Source: Phytoseiulus persimilis
Lineage: Eukaryota; Arthropoda; Arachnida; Mesostigmata; Phytoseiidae
NCBI GenBank assembly: GCA_037576195.1
Contig: CM075103.1
Location: 5,704,001-5,768,000 of the forward strand
Reading direction: 5' to 3'
Length of the DNA stretch: 64,000 nt
Shown here: piece by piece, positions 2,797 to 41,800 of the stretch
Layout of the letters: every line of letters begins with the position of its first letter
How positions within the stretch are numbered: the first letter of the stretch is position 1
Notes under the pieces: model-generated
The model's input: only the letters and a program-made list of their open reading frames with translations
What the model was told of the DNA's origin: nothing
The model's database searches: none
Made by a program: the position numbers and the translations under genes

Positions 2797-2832
2797 TATA
2801 TATGATCGGCTTAGTTTGTCAGTTTGTCCGCA

Positions 2833-2990: not shown

Positions 2991-3043
2991 CTTTTGAAAA
3001 GTATGGTCAGACTGGTCCCGGACTAAGCCGAGTATATGTAGTA

Positions 3044-3260
3044 AGGATTCGAATCAGAGTGATTCGAATCGTGTGATTCGAATCGGATGATCGATCCTGA
3101 TTCGAATCAAAATGATTCGAATCACTTTTGATTCGAATCAGCCTGATTCGACGGTTTTTGATTCGAATCACTTTTGATTCGATGTTTCTCGATTCGAATC
3201 AGGTGATTCGAATCAACTTGATTCGAATCAAAAGTGATTCGAATCAAAGTGATTCGAATC
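3044..3260. repeat. Right arm: array of the palindrome GATTCGAATC
   Basis: This is the counterpart of the left arm, with the same palindromic unit at irregular short spacing, ending at the right terminal inverted repeat. Together the arms give the element its foldback character. Confidence 0.9.
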
Positions 3261-14800: not shown

Positions 14801-17800
14801 CATCGACTCCGTTCAGCATTCGTTACCGTTGGACCCAGCGCGGAAGCGCGCACCTGGAGACGTCGCTGACTCTGTCGGCCGATCTGCATGAAACGTGTTC
14901 AGGAGGTCCGATAGTTGAGAAGTGTCGCGTTTCGAGAGCCTGATCGAGCGGAAAATTCCCAACGATCTCAGTGTTTTTTTCTCGGGTTTCTCTCTCTCTC
15001 CGCAGAATGGAGCCACGAGTCGAATGCTCCTCTCGAATCTTGCTCTTTCGAGTCAGGGCAAAGCTGCGTGCACGGGTCTCGTTGCGGGAGAAGCAAGCCC
15101 GCCTTCCTCGGAGGACCTGCCTCCTTCCGAGTTTTCCCGCGGTCCCCTGGGAGATTGCGTGAAGTAACCAGCCAAGCAACCAACCAGTCAGTCAGTCAAG
15201 TGCAACAAAGTATCAATCACTATGGAACTTCCGCGTTCTCGACGGGGAAGCATGTACGACTACGCGAAAGCGAACATATCTCTTCCCCCACACTGGTTCG
15301 CCATGCCAGACCGAACAGGAACAAACCAGACGATCGTCCGAGTGACTGGTCAGGGCCGTTGGGCTGCCGAGAGTCAGGCGATCGGAATCTATAGAAGAGA
15401 ATGTGCTCAACAGATCCTTGTTCGAACGGTAGACTCTAGCGCTCGCTGCTAGGAGAGACACTACACTCGCGTATAGCCGGTAGATCGGTTTACGTCCGCA
15501 TTGGAGGAAATCGGCAGAACGAAACAAAGAATCTGAATCTCACGAGGTTCGTTCGAGGCGTCTGTTCCACTCATTCGGAACACGATTCAGAGAAATTGGT
15601 GCCTCGTAGGCGGCAGCGCACGGGAACCGTTCCAGCCGGGGAAAAAGACAACGGTTTTTGATCCGAGCTAGAGTCACGCGCTTTGGCTTACAATCTATTC
15701 GTAGAAACATCAACTCTTGCCGCGAAATGTGCGATGGCCGAAACCAGATTCACAGAAGATGTCGAGGCCTTGAGACTCGTTTCATAATAGTCGAGCAGAA
15801 GGAAACGGAGAAAGTCGGAAATTCTGTTTGGAGCTTCCGATGCTTCGGGTGATATGTCTTGCGAAAGCATGCCCGAATGTACATTTCCAATCCTCACAAG
15901 TTCACCATGATCATCGGGTCGACGGGGATACGTATGGCTGAACCCGGGAAGTCGACGGCGAATCTGCCAGGAATCGAAGAAAGCTCGATCGAGAGGGAGC
16001 ACGTCAAAGAAGAGAGGTTCGGAGCCACTTGGCTGAGGAATCCATTCCTGCACTCGCCCGAGAAAAAATTGGTTGATGCGAATCTCTGCCGTCAGCGTCT
16101 GACCTCCCGATCGAGGCGACGCCAATGCAAACGTGCACGTGTGGTACTGACTTCGATAACCACTCGGTCATCTCGTCATTTGAATCTCATTGACCTGACA
16201 GCATGCTCGTGGATGAAGCTGACAGGTCGTAGTTGATTGGGTTTTCCACATGCCTGGGAATCGGGAAGCCGACTTGGCATCACTCGCGTGTTAAGTTACC
16301 TCCCTCCTTGTGCGAGATTCCCGCACGATACTCACGGGCTCATTGAGAAGATAACAATCGTTACCATCATAATAATTCATCACAATAATAACCTTAATCA
16401 TCATCGTTCCCAAGATGGCGGAGAAGCCGCGTCGCCTCCTCTCCCTCGACCAAGGAAGCCGAATACACTCCTGGTTGGAGTTACTATTCAACCGAGAACC
16501 AGGAAGACGAGTTCTTAGGAGCGATCGCGATCCCCGTCGCTGAATCGAGCGGCCGACTCACGGAACCATTCCTCGAGTGGTGTGAGTTGCCGCTAACATT
16601 CCGATTTTTAACCCATCCCAAAGAGTGAGAAGCCTTATCGGCGGATTGACGGACGACTCCAGTTCCGGAACGGCCTGCCGCAAGATGCGTTCGGTGAACA
16701 CTCTTTATCTATGCAACGAGTTGGAGTCGAAAGAGCTGAAACGAATTGTCAACAGTCGTCGAAAGCGGAACCCGTTGGCATGAACGGTTTTCGGTTCACG
16801 GAACTTCTATTGCAAGAAAGTGACAGTGACTGCAAGGGTCCCCAATGAGGAAAATTGAATCACCGCGACTCATCCCACAGAACTTGTCTCTTGAGTGTAA
16901 ACACTGTCGCTAAAACCTGTTGAAATAAAACCGGAAAATATTTGAGACAGCAACTCAGACGTTGATCCCTAGGTTTCGCTCCCTAGAGGCAACGGAACGG
17001 AAGCGTCGCTTTTCGTCTCTTCTTCCCACGGCAAAGCTCTAGTGAAGCTCTTCCAGTTCCTTGTGTCGGCTCTCGCATCCGTCGTGTGGGCATCCATCAA
17101 AATGAAAAAATATCACGTGTCAAGTAGTCATTGGCCATTCTATTAGTAACGGGGCCGATAACGGGTCACCTGGCTCGCTGGTGCGACAGTCACCAAACCA
17201 GCGCGTCTACCGGCGCGAGAACAGGCTGATTCGTTTGAATATGGGCCAGACGGAGCGACTGCAACCGCACAGCAGGAATCGATCGTCCAGCTCGTCGGTC
17301 TGTCATTCAGTTAGTCAGTCGGTTATTCATCTATGCACACGTCGCTTTCATGGAAACGGTGAGGGTTGGGACTCGCCCAGGAAAACTCATTCGACAGACG
17401 CGCGGCCTTAGCGGAACAATCAAAACCCTAAAACATGAAAAGCATTCGCAATGCAAGAAGCCGGCGCTGCCACACAGCGTACCGGCTGTAGAAGGCATCG
17501 CGGCTGAGGAATTTTTGGTGTTGACAAGCCGCGCGAAGGTATGCACTGTAAACAGTAGAAAGGTCCTCGCTGTGTATATGAGTCATGAACTCAAATTGAT
17601 GACACAGAGACTGTATTTCGACATATTCTGCTCCTGAGCGATGTCCGGTCGTGCTTTCCCTAAACGGCTTCTCACTGTCGGAATGGATTTCAAAGAATTA
17701 TTCCTGCTGAGGCCGACCACATTTGGAGCTCGGTTGATTTCCAAACAGCTCGCAAGTCATCTGAGATGGATACACGTAGGAGCTCGAGCTCTCCAAGCTC

Positions 17801-20800
17801 ACTCGGTTCGAGGAAACCACACGTGCCGTGAACGGAGAGAGAATCAGACGAAACAATCGATTATCTCTGGGAACCGCACCGCACTGGAACTGTTTCGGAC
17901 TGCAAAGGAACACCGCTTTTAGTGGATAGAGTTTCTATTTTCGCCGTCTGGGGACCTTGAACTTATCGGTTTTTGATGCATGCACAGGGAGATCCAAGTG
18001 AAAACCAGAACTCCATCGGTATCACCCCGAGAGATCATTCGTTTCACTTGTTTTTCTTCTCGTTCAGTTGCCCCGGACGAGAGCCGCCGCTGCCTTGCCC
18101 TCGATCGCGAGCGAGAAAAAGTTCGTTTCTTGAAACTACCTTCGTTGTCTACTTCCTTCTCCGGCTGTGAGGCTACGCTTGATTGTCTGCTGTGGACGTG
18201 AAGGCACCTTGTCAAGCGGGACCGAGACAAACCTCGCTGACTTTGTAGACATTCATTCGGCGATTACCGAAACGTGCTGCTTGAACGCATTCGAGTGATT
18301 GGATCAGCGCTGTTAACGACAGGCGGAAACTTGCGCAGTGAAAACTCCTTCGGTTCATTCGCTCCTTCCGCGGTTTTCCCAGCGGCAGGAGTCCCGAGCT
18401 CACCCGAAAAAGTGAGGCGGCGGCGAGGGCTCTGCGACTTTTTTCTGTTCGACACTGTTCTTGAGGATTCGATAGCTCACACAGCTCCCGAGATTCATCG
18501 GAGACCTGATACGCCGCGGGTCGAGGAGTTCCGCAATCCAATTAGTCCTAATGAGCCAAACGGCGCTCCTCTTCGGCCTCTCCTCGAGTGACCGATCGAT
18601 CGCGGCTCGTTCGAGAAGCTTCTGGTTTCTCTCATCAGGAGAAGCGGCCGCCGTCGAATCGGTTCCGCGGAAGTCCTGACGGTGACTCAGACAGCGTTCT
18701 GGTCCTTCACGGAAGTCAACGGTTCTCCATCACTGCATGAATGTAGAGCGATCGTTCGGAAAATCCGATTCGTGTGTTTGTTAACATGACACCTTGACAG
18801 TGCGGCGGCACCGAACGAGCCGGCGGGCGTGAAAGAGCGGGAGAGAGCTGTGCCAACTGTGAGTGGTGACCTCTGAGCTCGAACTGAATGTACACAATCG
18901 GGTCCGCTGCTGTAACCCGAACGAACGGTCATTTGGTTCTCTTTCTTCTTCTTTTCCTTCTCAGTTCGTTATCCGGGCTGATCAGCAGCAACGGTGATGG
19001 CGGCGGCCCATAACGGTTGTCGGCCGTTGTCGTCGCCGCTGCGGTCGCTGTGGTGGCGATGATGTGCCAGGATGACGAGCAGCGTCTATATCTCAGCTCT
19101 AGCTTTAGCGGTGGGCCGGCTTGGCAAGCTTGGCTCGCGACAGTCTGGCGCCTCCAGAAAGGCCGGACCAGAGTAGAAACGAGAGGAGCGCCTGTTGTAC
19201 TTGGCAGCTCTTGCCAGGGCGGCCGCATGAAGCGGCAACCCTGGTCCGGCCGCGCGCGTGGACAGGACGGCACCCGTTCGCTTCCTCCCGACCGGGTATC
19301 AGGTGCGTCGAGAAATGCTTCGGTTACAAGTCGCCGGAGGTGGGCCGGGCCCAGTGTGGTCAGTCATTGACAAAGCTTGCCCAGTCGCCTGGTCGATTAC
19401 CGCAGAACGCGGCTGGCATGACATGCTGTCGACCGGCTCCCGCGGCTCGCCGTTTCAAGTTATGAGCCGGTTCCCTCGACAGAGAGCGAGAGAACGAGCT
19501 AAATACCTGGCCAACAGAGGTATGTGCTGGCAACATTCTCCGAGACTCGATCGCGGCGAACAAACGGCACGCGTACTCGATCTCGGGGAAAGTCAAGTGG
19601 GCAAAGAGATCAATCTCGGAGAGTTCTCTGCCCCGAAAAGATCACTCGCTGTGTTCCGATATCTGAGCGGATGTGCTCGCTAATCGAGTTCGCGAAATCT
19701 CGCTCTCAACAGACCGGCTTGGAAACTGACCGAATCCATCCGAGGAGATTAGTTCCAGGGGTAAATGAACACAAGGCCCTCGGGAAACTGCGGCTATTGA
19801 AGGTCGAACTTGAGCCCTGAGGATCCTGGCCGGCGGACAGGCTCCGTTCTGCGCAATTCATTTCACTCAAGGACGGTCGGCACCTGTCGATAACTGTGTC
19901 GAGCTCGAGTGCGACGAAGGCCCGACGAATTCGCATCAATCTTCGCGAGACACAGGTGACATAAGGTCTGCACGAAGTCAGGCTGGGACGGAGAGTCTCA
20001 GTAGTGGACTCGATGTCGAAGAACGCGATCCGTCCCGAGTCGGAGCAGATGCTGTTCAAAACTGGACAGTTCAAGCAAAATACTGAAATAGGGCAAACTC
20101 TCGCGCCTCAAGAACCGACGCGAGTCCTGGTTGGTCAATGTTTCCAACCGGAACAAGCTCCCGCCGCTCAGGCGCTCCTTGGACTCGCGGGTCGACTCGT
20201 TTTCCTCCGAGTCAGCTGATTATCGCGGTTCCATTCAGCTCTCGTGAAAATGAATGACAATCGATGCCGTAAATGAGGAGAAATCGCGGGCCAGACGTCA
20301 ATCCGTGGTTCAAGAAAGTTCGTCTGACGCAAAGCGTCCTCTCGCCCGTCTCTGGATCGGTCGCAGGGTTCATGACAGCCGGAAAAATGCGAGGAAAACA
20401 GATGTCGTCACTCAAAAGTGAACGCAACCATCGACTTGACGTGGTCAAATGCCATCGCGGCAGCATCCGATGTTCTCTAACATGACGTAGCCAACAGGCC
20501 AGACGGCTTGTCCCTGAGCCGTTGCCGACAAGCGGACAGGGCGAGCCTAGTTCTGACGTCAGATTCCGAAAGCAGCTGTGCTTGGCCCCGTTTGCGTTGG
20601 GCCGACGTCTCCTTGGCCCGGACTGAGCGATTTTCGTATCGCTCCCTTGCCTGTTCTCGGCAGAGGAATGATTGGCGGACGAGTGTCCGAAGAACAGGAC
20701 TTGGCTTTCTTCTGGTCGAGTTTCGGTTGCGGTCGCCCGCCTCCGCGTCGAGCCTCGCCGGGGCCGCTGGGGGAGCCGGACCGTTTTTCAGCGTAGATTT

Positions 20801-23800
20801 CAGTTGAATTCTGATAAGCTTCAAGGGACTCGTCGTATCTTGGCAGAAAATTCAGCTGAAGTGCAGCGTTTTCACTCGCACGGTCGGGCGAGCGCGCGGC
20901 CAAATTGATGTGACCAAATATCGAGAATTGCCTTCTGGAGCTCCGGAACCCGGAAGCTAGAAATTGGAGAAGATCTCAAGAAATGTGGAGATCCCGACGC
21001 CGTGTTTTCTCGACTCATCATGCAGAGCTCCTCCGTCATGTCAGGCCCTTTTTCCTGGGAAATCTTCTCTCGTTAGACTTGAACGTGATCGAGGGCGCTT
21101 CTAGTTCCTACTGCTCGCCGAGAACTGCTGATGCAACTCTTGGAGAGCATCTCTCTAACCGAGGTGAGGGGGGCGGGGCGGGATACGCGACCCAGAGAGC
21201 TTGGATTATGTTTCCGGGACGAAACCACAGCCTGGAACCCAGACAAGCTCTGCAGCTGCATCGGTGCCACGCGTGCCGAGTAGTGCGGAAGTCGTCGGGG
21301 TGGGGCAGGGCGGCATGGGGATCGCACTGAAGCGGCAGAAGTGCTGTCCGTTTTCCGCCGAGAGAGGATTCCAGGGCAACGCCAGGAGAAAGGTGACGCG
21401 AGCAGAAATTTCCCAGCGATGTTTCCTTGATCCCGATGATGTCATATGTCGCTCTAGCTGCCGCCGGCCATGCGTACCAGGAAGCGGTCGTGAGGTTCGT
21501 GGATAGGATGCCGAGCCCAGGAAAGAGCGGGTTCCACTCTGGGCACGAGGATGACCACCACCGGCGTTCGGCGGAGCATTGACCAGAACACCAGTGGAGC
21601 TGTACGAAAGTTTTTGACGTGGGGATGAGTCGCCGAGCCGGTCGTCATCGGACAACCTCATTCCTTCTGGTAGCGCACGAACTCATTGAAGTTTTCCTCG
21701 TTTCTCCGATCCCTCTTTGTATTGGCTTGAACCTTCGGCGATCAGAGGAGTAATCGACGAATTTCCAGTTTCCCCGAAACTGTTTTCTCGTCTCTGACGC
21801 TACCTGACGTTCACCGATTCGGCGGATCACGTACTCGCCGCGTGGAGGAAACCGAGGGACGACCAGCGGCCAGGGGCCCGATGAGGTCCGACGACGGAAA
21901 ATTTGGCAACGGGCTAATCTCGTGAGTTTCCTACTGGTCAGTGGAGAAGCGGATGCAGATACGGAATTCCCCGCTCCAGTGAACAGTGCGGCAGCGGCGA
22001 GCGGGCGGGCGGAGAAAGGCACGGACGCTCGGTCACCAGTTGAGAAGATTCTCTTCGGCGGAATCAATCAAACAATCGATCACCAGAACTTCTCCTCCGC
22101 CGATCGAATGCGCAAGCGGAACGTCGTGACACCGAAAGCGTTTCGGTGGAACCGAATGGGATGAATATCGGGGACAGGGTTCGCATCCATCGAGGTCGGA
22201 GCACCGGGCTCGAGAAAGGCTGGGTTGCAGCTGGCCAAGATCGAGCGTTGTGAGTCGCTCTGTCCCAGGATCGGGTCGTGATTCAAATCTACTCCGGAAG
22301 CTCGAATCGGAGAAAGAAACGTGTGGAATGGAGAAGAAATAGAATCCTCCGTCTGGTGCTAGCCACCTGTCTCAACACTCATCTCGAGTGGTCTTCAGCG
22401 AGGCGAGCGTTAACGAACTCAGCGCTTCAAACTTCAGTGAAAGATCACGGCTCGAATTCGATCCAACGACATGCGCGTCCGGGAACTTCTGTCGCCGGCG
22501 AACCTTCATTTTTGTGAACCGAATAATCAAATATCCGGTCGCGTCTTTTATTTCGTAATATTTGCTCAGGCATCAGAAGCCATTCAGGCAGATGCGTCTC
22601 GTCCTTGGTCTTCGTCCGCAGCAATCCATGTGGATGGATGGACGCATTCTTGATGAGAAAGGAGGAACGAAGGAGGAAACAAACAAGGAACCGTAACGTG
22701 CTCACACCCCACACCGAGTCCTCGCAGGAGAGCGATCACGATGCTCGGCCACCATCTGCTCGTTGCGAATGAAAACGAGCCGACGTCATCGCAGACCCCT
22801 CTCAACGCGGAGTGGTTCTGGAATAACGGAAGGAACGGAATCGCTAAAAAAACACCGGAGGCTCGGCCGCTCGAGAGCTCGCAGCTGCGAGGACGATCGT
22901 ATGACTGATTTAGCTTGAATCCAATCTCAACAAACGTTGAGTCTCCTCTCATCGTGGAAAATGCGCCGGCGGCTCTCCTGCCGAGCACCTGCCTGTTCTA
23001 TTTGAGGTTTCAGCGCACTTTGCCTCGTCGAGAGGAGCAGACGGCTGTGTTGGCAAGCGAAGCAATGCTAAACTAACGAAACGGCCGCCGCCGCCACCGC
23101 CGTATCAGTCTGCGACGGTGGATTCCTTGCATCATCGAGACGCAAAACAATAATCAAGATACACCGCATCGGTCTGATCCGTCCTCAGTGGCGGCGGCGA
23201 AAGCTACAGCGAAACAGAGCACCGGAAAACATAACACACATTTTCCATCTGGTTGCGCCTGTTCCGTTTCTCCGGCTAGCTGCGAGCCAACGAACGAACG
23301 AACGAACTAACGAACGGAAATCGTTCGAGTCGATAGCGGACTTGGGAGAGCCATTGGATCCATTCCTATTCTGGAAAACACGTTTCCTCTAACGAACGAA
23401 GCGCCAACGAATCGCTCGTTCTTCGAGGGAAGCAGAAGAGGGTCGTCCGGTGTCGACACTTCCCGCTATCATTCGTCACTCGGCAACGTGTCATTGTGGT
23501 ATCGAAGTGCGCCCGAAAATCTCGTCCCGAGTGGGACAGTCACCAGGAACGAAAGTTCACAGCCGTTGACGTCACGCCTCAACGGACAAATACGGACGTC
23601 ACGTCTACATTGGGGCGAGAGAGGGTGCGGGGTTCTTCCAGGTGATTTATGTGTGCTTCGCCACTTGGAGCCCACTGGAAACAGGCTCCATCCTGACATG
23701 AAGGGCGCGCTCCCGGCTCCCGCGAAACCCTGGTCCCCAGGGCGGATTCTGCACCGCAGCTCATCGGGAGGGAGGATCGACGCCTGAAAACACACTTACG

Positions 23801-26800
23801 CGCACTTACCCACTCGCCGTCTGTCCGCCTGGTTTATACAATGACCCGAAAGTGGCCTCCCAAGACCAAATATTTAATTTTGGACTTGTGCGTCGCGGCC
23901 GTGCGGTTTCTGCCGAACGGCGGCTTTCGCTGCGGTGGTTGCGCGGCTAGAGTTTCTGATCCAATTTACAGAAAGCGAAACTGTATACCCGGCTTTATCA
24001 CCTCGACCGCGCTATTAACAAGCTCTTGAACTTTGCCCTGTCGTACAGCGGCTTGACAATTAGCTTTCGGGATGTACTGCGTCTCGGCCGCGTTTTCGCG
24101 GATTGCGGCGATGATAGACTCAGCAGAGGGAGCGGGCAGCGATGAACTTCCTCATGTTGGGTGAAGTTCTATTTCGGGCGATTGCGAAAAGCTCGCCCAG
24201 AGCGGGACGTGGAGTCGATTACGCATCAGATGGCCGGTTTCGATTCGCCGGCGAAATCATTTCCGCGAGAGTCAATCGCACGGCCAGCTCGGAGGTCGTG
24301 CCCGAACGGGCAGCTTCGCGCCTAAACATCGGTTCATTCATCGGCCCTCACACCTACACGGTCCCTCTTCACCAATCGGGGAAGGCCCGCGATGATTTGC
24401 ATGAAGCACCTCGACAGGGTGAAACCCTATTTTGACGGGACGTTGACTTCGAGGCGCGGACACGTGCTCGCTCCGGTCATGACCTCGGCTTGGAGGGCTT
24501 TGAAGCTTACCAACGCTCATGGACACCAGGTCCGAAGGGCCGGATGGATACGCCGAGAAATGCGAGTCCGCCGAGATACCCAATGTGCCAGTATCTTAAC
24601 TGTGACGCGGACCCGTGGTAAGCTTACACCTGTAGGTCGATCGACAAATAGGTTACCGCACCAGAACGGTCGAGACATCTGTGGCAGACACGCTTGCCCG
24701 GGGGAAGAATAATGCCCAAAGGTCCAAGGTCTGCGCCGCGCCGGCGTCTAGCCCGAACCTAACTGAGATTAAGCTGCTGTACTTCACCTCGGACCCGGAT
24801 TGCGAGAGTGTCTTAGCTGTTCTATCCCAGAAAGTATCTATCGAGCTGTCTATTGCTCGCTTGGTCGATAGGTCAGCTTCCTTTCCAGTCTCGGCTAAAC
24901 TCGTGACCGGTGCTGCGTGTTTCCTTATTTCTCTAGAACATCTGTCAAGTCTTGTTGCTGTTACCATGAAGCGTTTCGTACGCGATGACCGGGTTTGGTT
25001 TCGTCGTTCTCTAACCGGTAACCGAACAGGCATAGCTTGAAATTCCAGAGCATCGGTCCCAAACTTCTTCATCGATGAGGCCCCTTGAATCTATTGCACG
25101 AGCAGCCGAACCCGATTCGCTGTGCTCTTCAGCTGTGATTGGTCCGCACGACGCTGACCGCGGACGGAACATACGTGCTGCAGCTACAGTTTCCGTCAAG
25201 CACGGCGTTGAACTCTTTCAAAAATTCGTCTTGTCAGCCGATTCCGACACGTTCATCAATATGCTCCCCAGAGCCCCTCTCGGGACTCGATGGACGGTGC
25301 TCCCGAGAGAAGAGTGAAGACCGAGCCGGCCATGGAGTTGAGGGCGCTGCGTGCACAGCTGAACACGATGTTCTTGATCGCTCCCTGAAAACGTGAACGA
25401 GAATGACGTTATGACGCGTTCATTGTGAGCTCCGGGTACAACTCTGTGGCTATGCGAGCCAAGAGCACGGTGTCATAGCTCGCCTGTCACTCGAAGTGAC
25501 CAACGGTGACTTCACCAAGTTATTTTGGGGATTCGCCAGAAACGCTTCTTTCTATATTTACCCTGTCAACGTTAGAGGGCCTAGTACGGCCCTATCGTGC
25601 TGCTCATAGCGATGTATATCCCGTAGATATCACCGAGTACATTATCTTCGAGCAATCCATATGCGCCGCCGTTGGATGCGACGACCCCGATACGGAACTC
25701 AGACTTGAATGCAAACACAAAACATCCTGGACAAACAGGTCCAGATTCGAAACTCGGTCGCGGACTGCGGGAACTGGAACACGAGTCGAGTTCGCGACAC
25801 CAAAGGTCGCCGGCTCCCTCACGCCGTGCGTGGCGCCGCTCTGGCCGGCCGATCGCGTATGTCGTTGGACATCGGAGCGGGCTCGGTCGAATCCGATGCT
25901 CTTGACCTTCTCGATCGACAGACAGTCAAATCAGTCGGATCGCCTTCTGGCCGCCAGAAATGAATGACATGAAATACTCAAGTGCCAACTGTTGTTCTCG
26001 TTGTGGAAGATGTGATTGTCGCCTTTCGCTCTCGTCTAATCAACGACAGGCGAACGGATGTCATCGATCTGGTTTCCACAATTCTCGACAGACACTCGAA
26101 CGGGCTGACGAGCTGAAGCATCGTTTCGGATCGAAACGATTCAGAATCTGTCTAGACTACTTCTACCTATCCCGTTACGACGATTACGGGCTGCGGGCAG
26201 GCAGACGGGCGGGCGGGCGGACGGGAGACGCCGACAGTGCTCCGGCGCGCGAGTAAATGGAAGATCATGTCGCGTACACTCAAGGTCAGTGCAGAATGGC
26301 GGCGGCCATGTCGCGCCTTCCTGACCTCTCGTGAACAGTTTTCTGCCCGTGCTGGCGAATAAGACTGACATCGATCCCTGCCCGGATAAACCATTCGCAG
26401 GAAAGCCTCCACCACGAGAGCGATCTGCGAGGGAATGAAATTCTCCTCGATCTCCGTTTCCCTTCTTCTGCTCGTGCATTGAAAGAAGACGAAGTCGGTT
26501 CAGCCATGGACTGTGATCGTGGTTCTTCCTTCGCGAGCGATTCCAAGAGTTGCGGTTTTTGGTCAGTTTTCTCCAGCGATCCTCTCTGCCGACCACGCGG
26601 AAGCTGGTGCCGGACGAGCCGAGCCAGATCGGCGAAATTTCCAATTTTCAGCTCAGCTTTTTTGGCATTGTCGCTATCGCGGGACCGCCTATTTCAATTT
26701 TCCTATCGAGTTTAATCATATCCTCGCGAACGATTTCTTCGAAAATCTGTCCGAGGAAGCTCGATCGGCTGTAATTTGGCTTGAGTGAGACCTTCCGTCT

Positions 26801-29800
26801 TCCCACTGGAGCAAAATCCGACCAAGGAAAGTAAAGTCAACAACGAATTCTCGTTGTCCTCGCCCTGTACACTGTCGCATGGCCTTCCCGTCGGGGGCCG
26901 ATCCCGTCAGATGAGCGCTGAGACATCTAGTAGATAGTAGGCCAATGGCAAAACGGCCCTGTCAGCTTGACAAGGGTTGCAGCCTTTCGCGCTGCGTAGC
27001 GTACCTTGAACCGCGTTGTTCTCACAACAGCATTGCGAACAACAAAATCGCCGACAACCACATACATCAGCTGTCACAGTGAATTCCTGTTTCGAACACA
27101 ACGGTCTCGTCTAACGACGTTCTCTCTGTTTTTTTTTGCAGGTAAGTGTGGCGAGATTTTTTCGAGGTATTCCGGTGGGGCGAAAGCTGGTGCGACTCTT
27201 GCATCATCTCTGTCAACCAACCCTGACCCAGTGGAGTGGTCGTCTGAGTCACCGTATGAGTTAGAGTGTGGGTGGATGGCTCGAGCTCTAGGCCGGATAT
27301 GTGCGTTATGGCATGGCCCACTTTCACACAGTTCCCAGGGCCTTCCAGGCCGAACGGCGGTCCGACCCGCCAGTTCGGCCACGGCAGATGGAGAGGTCAA
27401 GCACTCCGTCGAGGAAACTGCGAGAAACACTACTAGGACCTTTCTTCTGGTTTCCTTGGCCCACTGGACAAATCTGGTCTCTCGTCGCTCTGAGCTGTTG
27501 TTCGTCCATGTTTCGTTCAAACAGTTTGTCATTCCTGTGTACAGGCGCGTGTCAACAACAGTCGGCCAGAGCTTCAGACAAAAAATAAGTACAGCTCGCC
27601 CGAATAGAGAGAGCAATGCCGAAAACACCGCTCTTCGTGAACTTGCGGAGATTCGTTCCAAGAGCCCGGATCGAATAGGAGCTTTCCGACCCGACATGGC
27701 ACTCAATAACTCGCTCTGCTTGTGACATTTTCCATTCTGGTTTTCCCTATAGAAACCACATTCTCCGTACAGGGTCTGGGAGTTTCACACATCTTGCGGA
27801 TTCTCCCCTGTTTTACCATCGGGACAATTGTTTCCATGAGTGAGGCCCGTTCGAGCGTGGCCAAATAGTCTGCCGTGTAGTAGTTATTCCGGAACCTCGG
27901 CCACGCATTCGACGAGATGGGCTTACTGTCTCTGATGGCATCGCTTGAGCCGATGACTCACGATTGAAAACTCCGTCGAGTTATGTACAGTTATTTTCAT
28001 CACGCGTAGCGAATACCTGCACGAGGATCACAGAGACATCCAGTAAACGCGCTAAGTCACGCGCGAAAGTCATGGGCTCTGAGGAATCCACGCAACGATT
28101 CGCATCCCAGCGGCTTAAAGCACGCGAAACTATTGCTCATCTGACTGCGGCTGGATGTTTTTCCGATGAATGTGACGTTGTGGCTTCTTTTTGAATCGCT
28201 CGAGCGTCTTATGAGTAAGGCCCGAGAGTTCATACTCTTTTTTGAATTTATCCCCCAATAGCAATCGATTGATCTGAGGCAATCGATGGAATAATTTCGA
28301 GGAAGTGCGTAAACTCTCGCGCCTCATCTATCAGCATCCAACTCAATCATGGATTTTTCGAAAACTCGAGTTGGTCTGGGAACTGCCCTGCTCCGACTCG
28401 AGGCTGGTTCCGGGGTTCTCAAGATGATTCTACTCCGGATGGGTCGAACTCTCTAATTGAAAGTTCTCCGCATAATGTCAAGATTGTGACCTTGGCATTC
28501 AGACCAGAACAGTTGGCTGCGCTGCTACCTTCCTCGTAGAGTTTAACCTTTGAACACCAAATTAATAATCGATACTGTTGACGTGGTATGGTCTGTGTTA
28601 CACAATTCCATGCAGAGTTTCATTGTGACCGCCGCGAGGAGGTTCACACCTGGCAGAAACTCCCGTCGCACTTTGCATGGCTGGGCGCTTGCGTTGGCGG
28701 GGAACTCAATCGACAACTGAGCTCGTGAAGTCTCGGAAGGTGCGCGTGGCCGTACGCGGGAAAAAGAGGAACTACACCGACGCAGAGCTCCCTAAACGGC
28801 GGCTATTGATCGGTCGACGGCAGCGGCTATTCTTGTCGCTCACGCTGCCTGGTGATGAAACGAGACATTTCCATATGGAAGAAACCCCATGTCGTCGAGC
28901 GGGGGCGCAGATCACGCCCGCGTGTTACGCGAGAACACAGTCCCAGTGTGGGCGTCCGTGATCCGACGGACTCGCATAGTCTCTATAATCGATTTGGATG
29001 GACCGTTATGCGAGAAGAGGCTATGAAATTCGAAGTGGGAGGAGCGCGCGAAAGAGATTTTCCTCCCGACCAGAGCAAGAACAATGAATGAATCATCCGC
29101 CGCACCGGGGGCCTTCTCTTAAGAAAAGGAGCCGTTTAGCTGACTTAGCTAGTTAACGTTCACACTCTGGCAGGATGTGTCTGGAGCCATTCTCAGAAAC
29201 GGCGAGCTTCATACCTCCGGGCGGCACGTTCACGCTCTTCGAGATTGTTCCATTAAACAACTTGATGGAAAGAAGCAGCATGTCCGACGAAGAGTTCTGA
29301 ATTCTAATTCAATTCCCCTCTGTGTTCGTTTCTTTTTTCAATTGGATCTTCTCGCTTAATTATTTCCTTTCGGATTTGCTCCTCTCGGCCATCATCGTCG
29401 AGAATGCTTCCATCGAATCGATTCCGTTTCGCGCTTCCTCGGCTTTGCGATGCGTTTTTCAACTTTGGCACGTGTCCACCATCGAGGAAAAAGATCCGGA
29501 ATCGTTTGATGTGAGCGAACAGGTCGCATCTCGCTCGTTCCGACTGAGTTTCCTGCCAGCGCGCGTGAAACTATTTGTCATGGGCTCTCGGAGGCGAATC
29601 TGTCCCTGTTCAGGGATGGCGTTATTTTGGAAGTGTATTAAAAATCTACTCAGCTGCCGTTCTCGCTGTCCGATCCGACGGGGATACGATAGAATTAGGC
29701 TCAGCGTCGCGAGCCGCAGAGAAATGGGTCAAGGAACGACTTGTCTCGTACAGCAGAGTGCTAACTTCGAAATATTTTCTCGGATGGTGACGTCGCGTTA

Positions 29801-32800
29801 AAGCGCTCGCCGCTTTAGAGTGTTCGGAGGCGTTATCAGCGGCTCAGCTGGATCCCACAGAATCCCGCTCATTCTGTTCGGGGTCATCGGTTTTTACTCT
29901 TCGAGGGAAACTTCTTGAGCAATCGGACTTGAGTCGAATACTGCGCATTGGCAGCTATACAAAGCGGTCCGCGTCTCGACGGACGAGACGATTGTGACGA
30001 TCATCACTCAGCTGATAGGGCGCTCGGTTATTTTTAACCCGATCGGTCCCGTTACACAACCGATAATTTGTCACCTGGAGATCGCGCGAGCGATCGCGAG
30101 GAATAGTCATCGAGTGCATTCATCGCCCATCCATGGAGCGATTCGCCAACGAGCGATGGGTGGAATATTGACACTTCGTGAAGGCTGCTCATGAACGAAG
30201 TGAGTCGTTGCCCATGTAATCTTGAAGACTCACAGTTGCGCGACAGTTGCGTTCACGAACAAATCAGATGGGTTCGCGGCGGCCCGAGTCGGTTTATGTA
30301 TCGAGCGGGGGCGTTTAACGTGCTCGAGCCGTCACGTTCGGACAACAGCTCCAGTGGGGGTTTTGTAACCTACTGGAGTTTCTATTGTCCACCCCGCGAC
30401 GGGCCTCCCGCGGATTGAGGGAAAACAACGGCGTTGTTCACTTTTTTCTCGTGGGACGCAACGGTCGCAGACTCGTCTCTATTGAACGCTCTCCGCGAAA
30501 TCGGACACTGGAATATCAAGAAACAAAGGAGCGGGGAACCCGATATTCTCGACGGCGTATCGTTCGGTTCGACTCGCTGTGCGATGGGAAGCCATCAGTC
30601 AGTCAGGTACCGGTGCAGGAAGCGCCTCGGAATTCAAGTGCTGATGAGTACCCTCGACATCTGCGGGTCCACGATTGGTTCATTCGCCCAGATATCATTG
30701 TTATCCAAGCATCCGAGCTCCCGCTATAGCTACAGTATCTGGGAGTCGATCGATCGATCGATCTATCTATTGAGCCAACGAGCGAGCGAGCGAGCTAGCT
30801 GACGAACGGATCGAATCGGCGCTGGCTTCGAAGGATCAAAAGTCTAAGGAATCATCGTTTGCCCGGTCTCGATGGCGGTCAAGGCCTGTCGATTGACCTC
30901 ATGCCAAATGTTACGAAAGTTCACCGCTTCCCATGGGAAACGAGCATTTCGAGTTCCAAGATATTGTCATCCTCATTCGGGAATTCGCCAGACGCGCCGA
31001 CGCGCTCACCATAGAGCGAATAGCGGACCCTGCGTCGGCGCCACGACGAGCTGTTTGCCGCAGTCAAGGTTACGGTCGTGCTGAATAACGTTCGTTCGTT
31101 TGTTCATTCGTCCTATCGATACGACACAGATCACGGTGCATGGACGAGGATCGTGACAAAGTCGGAGCGGTGTTTTTATACAAATCGTATCGTAGTTAGG
31201 CTCGGGCAGTTTCCCCACCGCCCGGTCGATAACGGGCCACCGGGATCATATCTCGGACGTACCTGAGGAACCTACCAGAATCGCCTTGGTGGCATCTGGA
31301 GAGACGATGTGAATTTCCACGAGCCTGCTGCCTGGCGAGCGATCAAGGCGGCGGCGGTGGCCAATGAGGAAATCGGGGGAAATTCGAGGAAAACTGCAGG
31401 GCACGGCATGACGCCATAAGGTCGCGGAAAGCTCAAAGTTCTCGGTCCGAACGATCGGATTCGATGGAGCTACATAAGTGGTTCAGAGTTGTTAAATCGT
31501 TTTGATGGAAGGAAAATCCGTTTACTCGAGCCGCGCTAGCACTGCGGTGCCCCGGTAGTGGATGTAACCGTGAATCAGTGCAATGGTTGTGAACACCACC
31601 GTGGAAGAACAATCACCGCCATTGTCGAGAGTACAATTATTAGAGTAACAACTGTGACGATGAGGGAACTACGCTCTGTCATTTCCGAATTCTCAGGAGT
31701 GGAATTCTGAATGGGCAACAAGAACACCCAGAACAACCCCACGAGAGAGTACTGCTTTCGGTTTCGATCTCTAATTCATGTTCGAGAGGTGCACCCAAGC
31801 AGCTGCTCTGAATGCATCGCTCGACGACAGAGTTCTTCAATTTTCAGTCGATCTGACTGCAAAACCGGAGGACGTTGAATAAGGTTGTGTTCCCATCATT
31901 CGTATCTGAAAATTGGTCTGCCGCGCCCAAAACTCACTCGACAAGTGCCTCCATCTTCAGAGACTGCAATCATCCCGCTGGAACTTCCGCGGGGCTGTGC
32001 AGGTTGCGGCCCGGCCTGATGATGACTCGCGATATTCCCGGACCATCATCTATTGCGGCTGAATAGAACTCAGCATCGATCAACATCTGCCTCCTCCTCC
32101 ATCCGCGTGGGCGAATTCGTGAACGTCTCGGTAGTCGTCCCATTCATCCATCCATCAATCCAGCGAGCCTGAGCTCTACTTGTGACGGTGATGCTTGAAG
32201 CGCTCCGCTCCGAGTTTATTTCGGAATGCTTCGGTCTGCAACAATGTTCTGCATTCTCACGAGCCACGGAAAAAAGTCTGCCGCGGCTGGAATAGCTTCT
32301 CGGGAAACTCGGCGAAGGGAAAAAACATCTTTCCCTCTGTGGAGGGAATCAGCGACGGAGTGCGATCGTTACGGCCATCATCGTGCTGACCGGCACGACG
32401 AGAGGAACGAGCTCCTCGCGAACTTAGCATACGACCTCGGGGCGAAATTCGAGTCGTTTCTAGTCGCGGCCTGGGAAAGTCATCAAAGCGTCTGGTGTTC
32501 ATTGGAGCTAGTTCCGGAACGCGGTCAGCGGTATCGAATGAAGGCATTGGCTTTTATTGGCTGACGTCTAACGGTGGAGAAAGAATTGATGAATAAATGG
32601 CTCTCAGAAAAATTTGCACGACGCTCATCATACCCTGACGGAACAGTTCCCGCCGCCCGGCACACCACGGAAGCAATTGGGAGCTGTGCTCGAGGAAGAT
32701 TCGCAAAGCTGCACCTCTTTATTCGCGTCTGAGATCGTGCTCGATTCCTCTCCGCGTTTAAAAATAATGAGGGTCTTGAGCCGTGCGTGAATCGAGTCGA

Positions 32801-35800
32801 CCCCGCGCCGGGCGAAGAGGTTCGCGTACCAGATGACGTTCACGCTTGTTGGATCACGCACGTTGACGTCACTGGTCTTTGTTAAATTCGACCCGCATTG
32901 TCTGAAGCCTCGCGAAGAGTCATGCGGTCGGTAGTGGCCACTCCGACACCGCAAAGCTTCTCGATGGAGTTGAGTCATCCCTCGAGGGAGTCGATTGGCG
33001 CGTCGCCGATGGCGTTTGTTGCGTTGACAACCCTAAACGTCGCTTCGACCGTGACGAACCCCGTTATCGGGATCGCGAGGAGGGGCTTCTGCAAGTTTTC
33101 CACTCCGTGTTGCGCGAAGGTTGGCGGTGAATCTCTCGAGCATCGCGCGCGATCTCCAGCCCGGATTGGAACTCCGCCGAGTCGCGAGCTCAGGGCTCTG
33201 TTTTGTTCTTCGAGCAACATTCGTGATGGAAAACGGCCAGATCAAATCTAGATGCAGACCTCGGAACGACTCAGAAGGAACCCATGAGATCCCAGACTGC
33301 GGACCTTGGAGAGTGTTTACCGCGGCGTCCTTAATGTGCGAATATGCCAATCGTACAAGCGAAAGGGGCTTGCTAGCTGATCGCGTTCTCTATATTTAGC
33401 CGTCGGCGGCTTATTTTTAGGATTTGCGTCACCTTCCTTGATTCCGCCCTTAGGATCGCACGAGACTCGGTTTCGCATCGACCTTTGAAACCGACGATAG
33501 CCGAGCGGTTGAACTGGGGCAGCAGGAACCAGAGGGACTGACCGTCGAGCCAGGAGAGTGGTGGCTCAAATGAAAAGACGAACACTGTTACCAAACCTTA
33601 TACGAGGCTGGTGGCGTGTCACAACACAGCCTCCCGTTATCTTCCGAGATCTAAGACTACCTGACGACTCGGCCATTGCCAAGGTAAACACGATCTCAGA
33701 TCGAGCGACAACGCGCCATCCAGAGCGACACAACAGTGAGCTAGCTGACCAAGCGGCCGGCAGCGTCTGGGCAGATCAAAACGGCTTTGATCAGGAGAAC
33801 TGGCGTCGAGTGGAAACTCCCCATCATTACATGGCATCCTGGCAAAACGCTGGCCAGAATCCTCCATTGCGTCACAACATGTGATTACTTCGGCTGCTGA
33901 TGCCGATCGGCCTCGGGTAAACAGGAGGAAATTAGAGCGCCGACCCTGAGCTCCTCGTCCGGAGCCGTTCCGTGCTCTTGTCCACCTCTACCGGTGAATC
34001 GGTCGACGCTCGCTCGATCGATCTCGGGAGCGGGGCGAGTCTGTTCGTTACGACGGGCGCCAGCTCGTTCGTTCTCCACGACGTCTCTTTGATTCTTTCT
34101 CAGCCTGGATGTTGAACTTCTTCCCGCTGAGGAATTTCCAGCGGCCCGCTGAGCGTCTCAACTCGCCACCGCTGAAGATCACGTGGTCCGCCCTGTGGCG
34201 TCTGTTGAGGGGAATAACGTTCTGTTTATTTTCGAACGCACCCATGAAGCCGTCGTGCGTAGCGGTTGACGAGTCGTCGAAACGATCACTGCTCGGGCTG
34301 AACAACATCATCATATTGCGCATGGTCGATAACGCTATTCCTGGATCGATTGAGCGCTCTTAGCATTCGATAACTTCGTGGACCACGCGGCAGGGAACAA
34401 TGAGGGTAACACAACGAACTCCTGCGGAGATAACAACCGCGGGCTGTAAATGTTTCCCGACGCTGCAACGAATCTGGATTGCTATCGAACAGGCAGCCTG
34501 GAGCTGTCACTCGGCATCATCCGTCGCTCTGCTTGGGATCGAACGAGGAGCTGCGCTCGCGGGACCCATGGGAACCCTGAGTCAGTCGGAGGGTGCGTGC
34601 GTGGCGGATGGACGGACTGACTTCGAACGAGGAGCATCACGTGTCGTAAACATGTCACGTCTCATTTCCGAAAGTTCAGACCACAAAGCACAACGAACAC
34701 TCGGACCGAATGCATTGGACCCGCGCGCCGCAGCTGACCGGGATACTGGCGATCTACGGCGATGATGATGAGCGACGAGCGTACTCAGAAAGGCTGTGTA
34801 CTCGGCCGATGGCCAGTGACGAATGGGTCGAAACAGCTTGGACTGGACTGTTGGTCGGTGGAAAATCTATCCGAAATGAAAAGGAGCACTCCCGAATAGT
34901 TTCGGTCCGCGCTCGATCTGCGGGTCGTCCACACTCGCGTTCCTCCGTCGTTCCGCTCGCCCGTCCTGCCATGTAACAGATGCGAACTTCAAACAGTCTT
35001 CCGAAAAATCGTTAAGCCACAATAAAAGTTTGATTATCGGGACGAGATTAACGCCAGCTCGACGCCAGGATTCAAACCAGTTGTAAACCTCGAAACAGTC
35101 CCTCTAAAGGGCTCGCTTTCCCGCGGCCTTAGAGCGATGTTTGGCTGGAAGCAGCGGTTTCCAGCCGTCCTAGTTTTCTGTCTGTCATCGCAACAGAATC
35201 CAGCGGTTGTCGCAGAGGCGATATCGCCGATGCTCTGACGCTTCTCTCGGTCATCTCAGCAGTACTTTCCGGCTCTTTCCTCCTCCCCCTTTCTTCCCTG
35301 TCACCGAGAGGAAAAACGCTCTGTTCCCGTTTCTATTCTTCGGTTCCGGACAGGCTCGATGTTCGAGCGGCCGACGGAGCGAGGGGAATGGAAGCAGGGA
35401 CGTTGCAGTTTAGCTGCACGAAAACAAAGAGCAACGCTCCAAGATCTGGAAAGACGGCCACGTCACGGTTCTCTGGTCGAGCGTCTCTCTGGACGAACTG
35501 TGTGACCTACCTCCAACAATCTTATCAGTCCGGCGAAAACCTCCAATTTAGAAATTTCTGGAACCCTTAACCAGCGCATATTCTGTGACGTCTGGTCTGG
35601 AGATCTCGCAGACTGTTGTGGCGAATATCTGTCCGTCCGTTTGATAAAACCGAGACACTCATTGGCCTGTCGAGAGCGTACAGTACGGGCCATGACGGCA
35701 GCAGAGAGCGAAAATTGCTATCACGCGTCGACATGGCGTGGTGCGAAAAATTTCACTCGTTCTCTCGAGCAAATCTTATCTCCGCTGGTTTGATCGAAAA

Positions 35801-38800
35801 AAATTATCGTCGTCATCTGGAGCTCGTAATCGCGTCCGATAAGTCGAAGTTGGCACGCCGCTCGACGCAGGGCGACGACGCTCGCTCAGGTCTCGCAAAC
35901 TTCCCTTGTCACTTCTCCAAGCAGTTACGCGATGTTTCAGAGAACGTTGGGAATCCATTCCGGGACGGACTGCGGCTATGTGACTCCCAAAAAGAAGCTT
36001 GACAAGCTTCCCTCGCACTTTATGGCCTCACCTTTATCTCCGAGGGCCTGTAGGCCATCAACCCCCGTCGAGCGGGTCCAGCCTCCTTTGGAGGCGACTA
36101 ATTGCCCCGCACTCCCGCTCATAGCGTCTCTCTCGTTTCCCATAGGCCAGATGTTGAAAGAGAGCTCGTTTCTCATCGGGTCTGATGTAAAATGCCACTG
36201 TCTGATTGGTCTGTCTCCTTGCGAGATTCCAGGACGTAACACACATCAGATCCGATCGTTGGGGCTCCCGTAATTCGGCTTACCAAATCATTGTTCGGAG
36301 AGCTCCGTTATCCGACTCACCGACTCCCTCAGTCGACCGCTGATCTAGCGATTGATCATTTCTTCGTGTCCTCCGTCGATACATCCAAGTTATCGCCGAA
36401 AGCCTGATGCAACAAGATCCGATGAACTCTGGCTGTCGTTCGTGGTAACCCGCCGCTATATTTCGTCCAGATGAGATAAATCAAGTTTCGCAATTTTAAT
36501 TTTTCCCTCACTCGAGCAAGGGGAACAGGCCGGTATCAGCCAAGACAGTCGTCGTCAACTGAGTGCACTGAGCAAGATATCCGATCAAACCGCGGTTCGA
36601 GCGACTCTTGACCCGTTAAGCCCCGTTCGCCCTTCGATGCTCGAGACGTCTCCCCACGAGACTCTTGCGATTAATCTGCCTGTTCACCCGTTACACTCCT
36701 GATAATCCTGTAGTCTGTTAAGCTGTTCCTTGATCCTCAGGCTCATGGGTGACATAAGTATGTGCCTGCTAGCTCGGGCACACTCGAATTTTCTGCAGCC
36801 GCAGCGATGTGGTAACTGGGTGCGCGGACATTCGCGGAACTAGCGTCGCGGCAGATGTGGCGTCGAACGTTTTCATGAATATAGGAAGTTACGCTCGGTT
36901 CCTGGCCAGGACGCAGGAGAGTGAGCTGTCGAAGAGCTGAGTGGATCGCATTCGAGAATCCCATCATACTGACGGGCATATCACGCAGATGCCGTGGGTT
37001 ATCTCTGCTCTCCAGATGTCTGAGAGTTCAAGGCATGCGTTCCTGTCACAATCATATCTGGTGTTGAGCCAGGCATGGGGCGGTTCGATACTCCCCTCCG
37101 TCCTCTCAAGGTCTGAGTCGTAGCGAAAGTCCGGGCTTTTCGAGAACCTGTTGCTTGTCTGTTGCGCGTACGAGAATTTTCAGCTCAGTACTGTTTACGA
37201 TTCTCTGCCCCCTCCCAGTCGTGTTGACAACTCATCGGAATCCTAAACTTTGAAGATGCTAGAAAACCATTCTGAACTCGGGAATCAACCGTTCGACCTT
37301 CATCGGTCGTGACATGTCCCTAGTCGCCGTGAACGCTCGGACCTTAGTTGGTCCCGACCGATAACGCGGGGTCATCCAAACATCGAGATGCAGAGAGCGG
37401 ACCTTTGCCGCGGTTTGACACACTGGACGCTATCCGGGTCAGACTCCCGGCAACCGTCACAGCCGGGGCAAGTGGCATACGGTCAGAGACAGGCGGCGGC
37501 TCACGGGGGAGTGGAAACACCCCGCGAGAAGCCGGGGGATGGGGGTTGAGTAAGATTTTCCACGGCCCGTGGAGCTTGCGACTCCTACGCACGGGCCGCC
37601 GAGTGCGCCGCCGCCAGCACTCTACCCTCGTCATCGATGACGTCGAGAAACGGCGAGGGCCCGCGTCGACGAGAGCGAGAGTCGATGCTTCTAAAAGACA
37701 GCCGCTGGGAAGCACGCGCAACTGTCCAAGCAAGCTGTGTCGCCGGCAGGTTGCAAACAGGCTACGAGTCTACGAGTAAGCTATCCAGCTAAAAATCAAG
37801 TTGTAAGTGCTCCAAAGCCGAGTCGCTTGAAAGAACTCGAGGAACTGTCTGTCGATTGTGTGCCAGATATGATTTCAATGTGCTCCCTTCCACTCGGTGC
37901 TGGTGGTGAGTTGTCTCAAGCTTGACATAAACCAGACTCCAGTAGGGAGTTTCATGCCATGCCAGCGGCGCTGGATACTCTCGGTGGTCTGTTTTCGTTA
38001 GATCCGGAGGGGACCTCCCTGGATGTTCGCCAATCAGGAACCCTATCGTCCCGGGAGAAAATTCCAACGAGGAAGAGAACGATAACAAGTCAAACATGTT
38101 TGTACCGTGATTCCCGCGAGTATGCCAAAACTAGGCAAGCATGGGTGGGTCCCGTGCAGCCCCCTAACCGCCCCGCAGGAAACTCCCCGCAGCTCCAGGA
38201 TCGTTTTGAGCGGCAGTCCTGGCTGCTAACCGTAGAGTGGAAAAGCCGAAAAATCCGAAGAGAGGATGTCGAGTTGCCAAACGAAGCCATAAAAACCAGG
38301 CATCCGGCGGCGGCTTTGGATTCTTTTTCTGGAAACAATCCGATCGGCTGGACTTGATGCGATCCGTGTGAAACGGAATTGTCTAGTTCCGTGCAGTCCA
38401 AGGTTGAAGAGTGTGTTTCCAAATTGAATCCGCGTTTTCGGATCCTTCCCGTCCGCTGCAACCGGAGTGCGCTCGATTGGGGTCCGCGTTGAGCTCCAAT
38501 CGAGTCGTTCGTGAATGGAGAAACTGCCTTGGAATCCGAAGCAGGTTGGGGTCGCTGTCATAAAGCTGTTTGTAAACATCCACACATTCCGATCCAATGC
38601 GATAATGACCGTAGCGAACTAAAGTGGGATTGTTGTTACCGCTCATCACTCGCGATCGAGCCGATTGCGGCGCCTCTCATGCGGAGTTGGTCGCCTGGGA
38701 GTGTGATGAACACCAAGAGCTCCTGATCTACATAGGGTCAGCCGACAATGGTCAATCCCGAAACTTCGGGGCCGCAGACGCAGCGGTTGGAGTTATGCTC

Positions 38801-41800
38801 CACTCGACACGGAACGCGTGGAACTCGAGGGAAAAGTCGGACGCCGCCGGTCCCTGCGCAATTGGTGGTTTGATAGATTTGTTCGATAATGCCAGACCCC
38901 GCGCGGCTCTCCATCGCGGTCCAATCGACCGATGTTGAGGAAAACGGATGACCTCGAGTCTTCAGACACGTCTTTGGGAGGATTCGGAGGCGAGACTCGC
39001 GAGCGAGTTCAGAGGAGGAGGGTTTTTGTGCGGACTCAGTTTTCGCCCGGACGACACCGCTTCCGGTACGCGCGCCGCGCCGTTGATAGCCGTGTTTTCT
39101 TTTCGCTCAGTGCGCAATACCTCCAGTGAAGGCTTCACATTGAAGTTGTGGCCGGTTTCACGGTTAAAGATCTAATCAACATTCCGCGACAGCCGCTCGC
39201 TCGATGCCTGCGAAGCAGCTGTTCGTTCCGGAACTGTCTTTAATTGTAGGTCCCGGAGTGAATTCCGGATTTCCGATGTAGTCTCCAGACAGGAGCCAAA
39301 CTCTTGGAGCTGGTGGCGACTCGAGCGTCCTGAGGGCCGACTCGCACATCGATCCGTCGGTCGGCAGGCAGGCCGTTGAGTTGACGTAGCGTCACGGACA
39401 CGACCGCGCGACGTCGCTGCGGAATTTCCCTGGCTCCAGCGGACAAAATCAACGAAGCTCGCGCCAACGAGGAAGTGCGACCGCTGTTGTGCGAGTAGAT
39501 CTTTACTTAGCCGAGATTTTCATCGTCTGGATCCGCCTTCCGTTAGTTCGTCCGTCAGCCGGCCGGTCCCTCCGACTGTTTGTCGATACGTGTGCCGTTG
39601 TAGGCGGCCACGTCGAGGTCGCCGAGTCTGGGTCAGACAGGGTGTGTTCTCAGACCTGGACGTCGAGTCGCCCACGCGCGGCGCCCACATTGAAATCAGT
39701 GCGATTCGACCTGGGGGGAATCTATGCCCACCCCATCCGACCAGCCACTCCCGCCCTTCCGAGCTGGAACGAAGGTTCCTCTCGTGGAGGGAGAACGACG
39801 GTTTCCGGAGAATATCAGCTGCCCGCAGTCGACTACACTGCTCTTACTCAGCTCGAGTGTTATGATCGCCGTACTTAATGCAATCGTTTTCCACCGTGTC
39901 GCAAGCCTGTTTTGAAAGAGGGTCCGCGTGCCCGGGGATCGTTATGGGTCGAGATCGGAGCAACGTGACAGACCATGGCTACGCACAGAAAATCGCGGCT
40001 ATCAACAACGTCGTTCTGTTTTGTTCCAGACATCCTGCGCCACAGCAAGTCGGACCCGATGCTCACTACGCCCTCGACCCGCGACATGATGCGTTCGCAG
40101 CAGATGGCGATCGCGTGTCGCCTGATGTCGCTGCAAAGCTGCGGTCATCAGAGGTTCCTGCCCAATCAAGGAAGTCACTCTGTCGATGAGGAATTCGCTC
40201 AACACGACAACGATGACAGCGACGACGACGAGATCGCCGAGGACGACATCGGCAGCATCGCTCCCACCATCGAGCAGATCAAGGAAAACTACAACTCCTG
40301 TTTCTCGTGAGTACCCCCGCCGACTTTTGCTCCTGACGATTATTAACCCAACCAAGTGTCTGCCTATCTCGGGCTATTCGATCGCGATGCTGGCGACCAT
40401 TGCGCAAGCCTCGACGCCGCGCTGCCCAAATGCGTTTGTTCAGCTCGCGGCGCGCTGACAGCAGCGAGCTCGTTTGAGATTATTCGAGCGGGGCTAAACT
40501 CAATGTCACTTCTTCGTCTTTCTTTTTGATCCGGCCAAGCCTTTCGGGCTGTTACGAGCGTTTACTCTGAAGGGTTACCTGCCCACGATTGGGAGAGCGT
40601 TGGCCTTCCGAGCTCTCAGGTGGTTTGCCAAGGTTCGCTGCGTATCGCGCGACGGGCCATCTGATTCTAAGGTCATGTGCGGCTTCCGTACACAGTCGGG
40701 GTGCGCTGCCGTTTCATCGGCTTTCGCATCGAGATCGCTCCGCCAATCTTTGCATCTACCCATAAAGAGCCATAACGATGGAATTCCTGAGAGTTCACGA
40801 CGAATCGTAAGATCTCGTTATCGCCGAGGAATGCTCGCCGTTTCCCGCTATCGAGATTGATTGATCGATAACCGTCCCCATCGCTGTGACGTCGACCCGA
40901 GTTCTTCGTGCGCGTCTCCAAACTCCCCCCCCCCCCCCTCTTCTGTATCGCTCTCACCGGCGTGGCTCGCGGTGGGTTTCCGCGATTACGCCGGAGCTCC
41001 GAGCCGGTTGTTGAACCGGAGGCCAGCATCCGTTCGACTGCGCGGAACTCCCCGAAGGCACGCGTTCGGTGGCCTGACCGTGAATCGGATTGCGTGCCGC
41101 GCACCTGTCAAAACCTTGCGGAGACGATCGCGGATGTTCGACGTCGCTGCTGCCATCGAAATCGCCGTGTCGGGCTCGACGGCCTCAGGAAGGTCGGTGA
41201 CGCAGGTCCTGTGGCCGTGACGGGAGAGTAGTTGGTTTTAGATGTGTTTTGATTAGCCGCGTTGCAACACATAACAAATTCATGGTAGTCTCGCGATTGT
41301 CTCCTTTGAGTACAGGGCAACCAACAGATTGACCGACCGACCGATTAGGTTGGTGAATGCTTGCCGCGGCTATTTTGGTGGACCGAAGCGGCGGCGAGTG
41401 TACGCCGACTACGGGTGTTTGTGTCCCGGCCTCGCATTGCTGAGCAAGTCTCTCATTGACCCGTAGAACGCTAGTGGATCGTTACGATCCACGTCACTTC
41501 CCGGCGGCGGCAGCGATGCGCACTGCACTTTCACAGTGATCTATCGCGGCGTTTACCGCTCCGGGTCTCTGGTGTCTTATTATTAGTTTGCTCGTCTGGC
41601 GTCTCCCAAGTCCGTGTGCCGGCGTCGCTCGAATTCGTGATCATCAAATCACTCATACCGCTCCAGCCGGACTGTGTGGAAATGTGGAACGACTTCCTAG
41701 GAGTCGCGGCCGTCAAACTCGGATTTGCACGCTCGCTCAGTCGGCTGCTAAATACCGGCCGAGGGAACCTGATCTGGATCGCCGAGCTATCTCAGAGCAG

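Follow-up and report, generated by a model that had tools for sequence, protein, structure and literature searches.

Position 27142 of the window (the whole 64-kb stretch of Phytoseiulus persimilis DNA analysed, GC content 52.8%) is very likely a ratchet point of recursive splicing that belongs to a larger set of similar sites in the genome. The genome of this arthropod probably holds some tens of ratchet points; its 112 matches to the chitin-binding cuticle domain agree with the arthropod affiliation. The reading of 27142 as a ratchet point was put forward in a preliminary description of the window and is now supported by the genome-wide excess of the motif (57 matches against 17 and 21 in controls), by same-strand pairing of the matches, by CTAAC enrichment upstream of them, by the lack of strong coding signal downstream of 37 sites (0/37) and by six sites in sense orientation in modelled introns. 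The T tract and GCAG reported to abut GTAAGT were confirmed, with the acceptor ending at 27141 and the donor starting at 27142. The + strand reads TTCTCTCTG-TTTTTTTTT-GCAG/GTAAGT from 27120 to 27147, where T9 occupies 27129-27137, GCAG 27138-27141 and GTAAGT 27142-27147, with a gap of zero between the last two. This is the juxtaposition of a Drosophila-type ratchet point, (Y)nNCAG/GTRAGT, to which a CTAAC motif adds a putative branch point:

27111..27115, + strand: branch-point-like CTAAC whose A at 27114 would be the branch nucleotide and precedes the end of the acceptor AG by 27 nt
27120..27141, + strand: predicted polypyrimidine tract and acceptor, TTCTCTCTG-T9-GCAG, 9.9 bits (7.8 bits for the exon 2 acceptor)
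27142..27147, + strand: predicted ratchet-point donor GTAAGT of a zero-length exon, 8.9 bits

The 27142 site ranks first among the 352 AG/GT positions of both strands of the window, with 18.8 bits against 11.1 for the runner-up, as scored with generic metazoan splice-site weights that were not trained on Phytoseiulus persimilis. None of 200 windows simulated with a first-order Markov model reached 18.8 bits, the top simulated score being 14.6. CAGGTAAGT occurs once in the two strands of the window and TTTTTTTTGCAGGTAAGT has a single copy in the 181-Mb genome, at this site. The 501 bp surrounding 27142 have themselves as sole genome match in a search that passes over simple repeats and words of very high frequency. 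The rank of the site, its single exact copy in 181 Mb and the CTAAC at the right distance speak against a chance encounter of a T-rich stretch with an unused GTAAGT, as does its sense-strand location, roughly halfway along the only long intron detected in its gene. Chance is very unlikely in our opinion, even if 27142 was picked by eye from a window and 17-21 of the 57 genome matches are expected without selected juxtaposition.

The site is found in sense within a 28,023-bp intron of a predicted gene that we take to be Pinocchio. Pfam gave no family for the predicted protein, joined exons included, and no paper on Pinocchio/CG4710 of Drosophila was found in the open-access literature. The gene model is composed of the following elements:

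11892..12006, + strand: coding part of exon 1, 38 codons plus 1 base, in an ATG-open frame with a stop 2 codons beyond the donor GTGAGT at 12007
12007..40029, + strand: long first coding intron, 28,023 bp
40030..40306, + strand: exon 2, codon score 19.95 over 91 codons, acceptor TTCTGTTTTGTTCCAG, donor GTGAGT
42711..42766, + strand: exon 3 (SCGVSWSENHVSLDCKECGG), continuing in frame
42900..42980, both borders approximate, + strand: exon 4 (GYALTRPCLACDGQCSQMWTR...), its peptide located via a motif

The intron between exons 2 and 3 (40307-42710) has 2,404 bp. Exon 1, which was not in the training set of the codon score (exon 2 was), scores 6.27, a value matched by 0 of the 131 ATG-started open stretches of the long intron. 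Its end in phase 1 agrees with exon 2, which completes the codon as T/AC. The gene could instead begin at ATG 39975 and lack the 28-kb intron, exon 1 being part of another transcript: the frame of exon 2 is open upstream to this ATG, which has a good start context, and the joined protein is without Pfam match. However, the 18-codon extension from ATG 39975 scores -6.96, a score equalled or exceeded by 96% of 217 intronic ATG-open stretches, while exon 1 tops its own null set. By codon use, exon 1 counts as coding and the in-frame upstream extension of exon 2 does not, and for this reason we retain the 28,023-bp intron. The fit of the exon 1 donor phase to exon 2 also counts against a start at 39975. 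So does the lack of further exons in 12007..40029, on either strand, in a search combining acceptor, donor and codon use; this scorer is insensitive: on the fetched loci it detected the Ets exon described below but neither the E74-like upstream exon nor exon 2 of the WAVE-like gene. We hold the start at 39975 to be improbable. Scans for + strand codon-bias segments in the intron gave none above 6.5 in one case and none above 7 in another. The minus strand of the intron has a segment at 34093-34326 with a codon-use score of 7.2 / 11.2.

Cut at 27142, the 28,023-bp intron gives pieces of 15,135 and 12,888 bp. The computed position of the site at 54%, 1.1 kb beyond the midpoint, bears out the preliminary description, which had placed it on the strand of the gene and close to the middle of the intron. 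We propose that splicing would begin between the exon 1 donor at 12007 and the acceptor that stops at 27141. With GTAAGT directly after this acceptor, the junction would restore a donor (ACT/GTAAGT), and this donor would serve for the step to exon 2 at 40030. The 28-kb intron would leave as pieces of 15.1 kb and 12.9 kb and the mRNA would retain nothing. By analogy with flies, the benefit would be more accurate intron removal, as put forward in one study (PMC6110457). The sequence signals, the excess across the genome, the clustering on one strand and the sense orientation in three gene models are what the data show; the gene models themselves, the use of the site by the spliceosome, the order of the steps and the benefit are what we infer from the DNA sequence.

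The 180,977,233 bases of the genome were scanned with Y8-NCAG/GTRAGT as main pattern, yielding 57 matches. Control patterns with a gap between acceptor and donor gave 17 (1 base) and 21 (2 bases, 18 distinct). About 60-70% of the 57 matches are an excess above the gap controls and about 30-37% (17-21/57) are expected by chance. When Y8 is read backward there are 32 matches versus 57 forward, and the gap controls were preferred because 16 of these 32 are one repeated 18-mer. Backward reading of the gap patterns themselves counts 30 (1-base gap) and 21 (2-base gap). A six-pyrimidine pattern has 120 forward versus 64 backward matches and a TAG-acceptor pattern 7 versus 41. The strict Y10-NCAGGTAAGT pattern (GTAAGT) shows a small excess, 10 forward versus 7 backward, and misses the 27142 site, where a G precedes T9. 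Taken first, this pattern had hinted at no signal across the genome.

The pyrimidine tracts of the main-pattern matches are rich in T. TT is present at positions -6/-5 in 40/57 matches versus 3/17 (1-base gap) and 9/21 (2-base gap), and at least six of the eight pyrimidines are T in 25/57 versus 1/17 and 10/21 (7/18 distinct), respectively. The contrast is strong with the 1-base-gap control and weak with the 2-base-gap control, a less favourable comparison that includes repeated sequence. CCTCCCACAGGTGAGT and T9CAGGAGTGAGT recur ~13 kb apart in both C2:2956750-2982455 and C3:100885-139064 (C1 to C4 designate contigs); because both motifs recur at matching distances, a long segment seems duplicated between C2 and C3. 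This repeated segment inflates the two-base-gap control as well as one pattern count.

Among the 57 sites, six pairs share a strand and lie less than 25 kb apart, whereas opposite-strand pairs at this distance number zero. When 54 matches were placed at random on the four large contigs (20,000 trials), such pairs numbered 0.215 on average and at most 4. In either gap control the single close pair consists of near-identical or repeated sequences. The looser six-pyrimidine pattern in C1-C3 (97 of its 120 matches, minus four repeat-like rows) also gives 6 same-strand and 0 opposite-strand pairs within 25 kb, which partly coincide with those of the main pattern.

Sister sites were compared for the 37 of the 57 that have sequence. 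CTAAC is found within -45..-14 of 7 of them, 27142 among these, versus 0.3 expected. Strong coding signal is found in the 300 nt downstream of none of the 37, codon scores ranging from 1.8 to 6.0; the top value belongs to sister site L030, where coding starts ~212 nt on. Likeness between sites (500 bp on each side) is detected in 2/666 pairs, across the motif alone, and the 37 sites are no mutual copies.

A rival reading is a vertebrate-type recursive or cassette exon that begins with GTAAGT after 27141, runs to a donor further downstream and enters the mRNA in some cases. Joining of the preceding exon to a vertebrate RS-exon makes the recursive donor (PMC6224609). In that situation splicing begins from a defined RS-exon, whereas 27142 has no clear downstream donor: the best candidate at +30..+130 is GTGGGG at +33 with 1.9 bits. 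Fly ratchet points are backed by short cryptic exons, of ~50 nt, through which they are thought to be recognised, according to PMC8605326, and GT[AG][AGT]GT has a raised density at +60..+110 of the 37 mite sites (8 versus ~1.2, in one of 25 bins inspected). However, over +30..+130 a fuller donor score shows an excess that is weak at best (Mann-Whitney p = 0.02, uncorrected), so that the donor of the Drosophila cryptic exons has no clear counterpart at these sites by this score. The coding score of 2.2 in the 300 nt downstream of 27142 argues against an included exon as well, although a short, weakly coding exon would escape detection. Such an exon appears unlikely to us.

We privilege the interpretation that 27142 is a ratchet point of the zero-length type, which is extended by two clusters in which flanking exons were recognised, out of six whose flanks were partly fetched:

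C4, upstream exon ending at GTGAGT, C4:17133760: E74/ELF-like intron of 57,772 bp (57.8 kb) with three sites, all in sense
C4:17147256, C4:17160312 and C4:17177107: sites of the E74-like intron, separating pieces of 13,496, 13,056, 16,795 and 14,425 bp
C2, minus strand: WAVE/SCAR-like intron of 50,108 bp (50.1 kb) with two sites, both in sense
C2:45716300 and C2:45700258, minus strand: sites of the WAVE-like intron, separating pieces of 19,181, 16,042 and 14,885 bp

The exon downstream of the E74-like intron codes for an Ets domain (PF00178, E = 2e-20) whose best solved relatives are ELF-2 and ELF-1. The upstream exon has no Pfam match and is proposed from its codon use (9.5 / 11.2) and a plausible join; another segment 0.9 kb upstream has an equally high codon score. 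The WAVE-like first coding exon resembles the beginning of human WAVE1 (E = 1e-6), has no Pfam match and lies where codon use scores the opposite strand higher. The second exon was recognised by eye and has no PDB match alone; joining exons 1 and 2 lengthens the WAVE1 alignment (E = 3e-9, from 32.4 to 40.5 bits).

Predicted gene models thus place 6 of the 57 motif sites within long introns, all six in sense and delimiting intron pieces of 13-19 kb. The first site is found at 54% of the intron when single (Pinocchio), at 38% when first of two (WAVE-like) and at 23% when first of three (E74-like). Compared with random positions, the evenness of the sites has p = 0.0009 in the E74-like intron, 0.012 in the WAVE-like one and 0.08 in Pinocchio. 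The combined Fisher value of 9e-5 is too favourable because the clusters were selected for sites lying close together and their flanks were retrieved at places where exons had been guessed.

The exons preceding the three split introns end in ACT (12007), TAC (L043:3760) and TTC (L054:9481, minus strand), not in AG. The GTRAGT of the ratchet point itself would have to carry a regenerated donor. These exons use GTGAGT donors, and exon 2 of the Pinocchio-like gene likewise ends CTC/GTGAGT (40307).

No convincing flanking exons were detected in the partly fetched flanks of the four other clusters:

C2:17936017/17954824
C1:14226625/14240926
C4:21736084/21758728
C1:35684740/35696604

Homeobox (95 places) and nuclear-receptor genes (36 places) were considered as carriers; few are near sites in a comparison by eye. 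The site C4:21323386(+) precedes a homeobox at C4:21349159(+) by 25.8 kb.

In Drosophila the ratchet consensus is (Y)nNCAG/GTAAGT (PMC2773006). Recursive sites occur there in most introns above 40 kb and are enriched in first introns; single sites lie close to mid-intron, with the first one at ~33% or ~25% where an intron has two or three, and the pieces measure ~9-15 kb (Pai et al. 2018, PMC6110457). Drosophila ratchet points such as those of Ubx, kuz, Bx and Ten-m share with the mite sites the juxtaposed acceptor and donor and the location in long introns, as well as the midpoint position of single sites and the even spacing of multiple ones (PMC6110457, PMC8605326). The pieces of the three mite introns are 13-19 kb versus ~9-15 kb in Drosophila, the mite sites being known from sequence alone.

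Evidence of the same nature, from sequence only, was used for juxtaposed acceptor-donor sites by Shepard et al. 2009 (PMC2773006), who describe enrichment of RP-sites in fly, mosquito, bee, beetle and sea urchin and its absence in vertebrates. Their sets were annotated introns above 50 kb, compared in sense versus complementary strand, whereas the present analysis uses gap controls, strand clustering and three gene models in an unannotated genome. Since recursive splicing had been deduced beyond flies in that work, the mite case is an extension and not a surprise. No report of recursive splicing in chelicerates was found in the open-access literature, judged by titles and abstract starts: the mechanism is known and the lineage appears to be new. 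A single motif becomes in this way a testable claim at the scale of the genome. Worked out in flies and deduced from sequence in some insects and sea urchin, recursive splicing probably serves a further arthropod, where the intron pieces are of similar size. That it operates genome-wide in this non-insect arthropod, with about one site per 13-19 kb, and hence is older than the divergence of insects from chelicerates is a proposition to which we give even chances. Site positions in the orthologous introns of E74, WAVE/SCAR and Pinocchio could tell inheritance from new origin as introns lengthen.

The remainder of the window holds repeats and neighbour genes. The repeat peptide QLWRGDSETNLAIT... 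encoded at 2753-3076 (+) is also present in L049:61-1227 (-), a long open tandem array adjoining another motif cluster on C2; QLWRGDSETNLAIT is a repeat of the genome. The open frame 791-1306 (-) is presumably a reverse-transcriptase fragment, an impression gained by eye. A tandem short repeat at 59103-59681 (-) translates as RHFGTKTSRSPGTSAPRHYG and similar. The neighbour gene at 46944-51400 (+) codes for a glycosyl-hydrolase-15 domain (PF00723), its product being, we assume, probably a phosphorylase kinase subunit, and the neighbour at 52440-53115 (-) is a Der1-like gene (PF04511).
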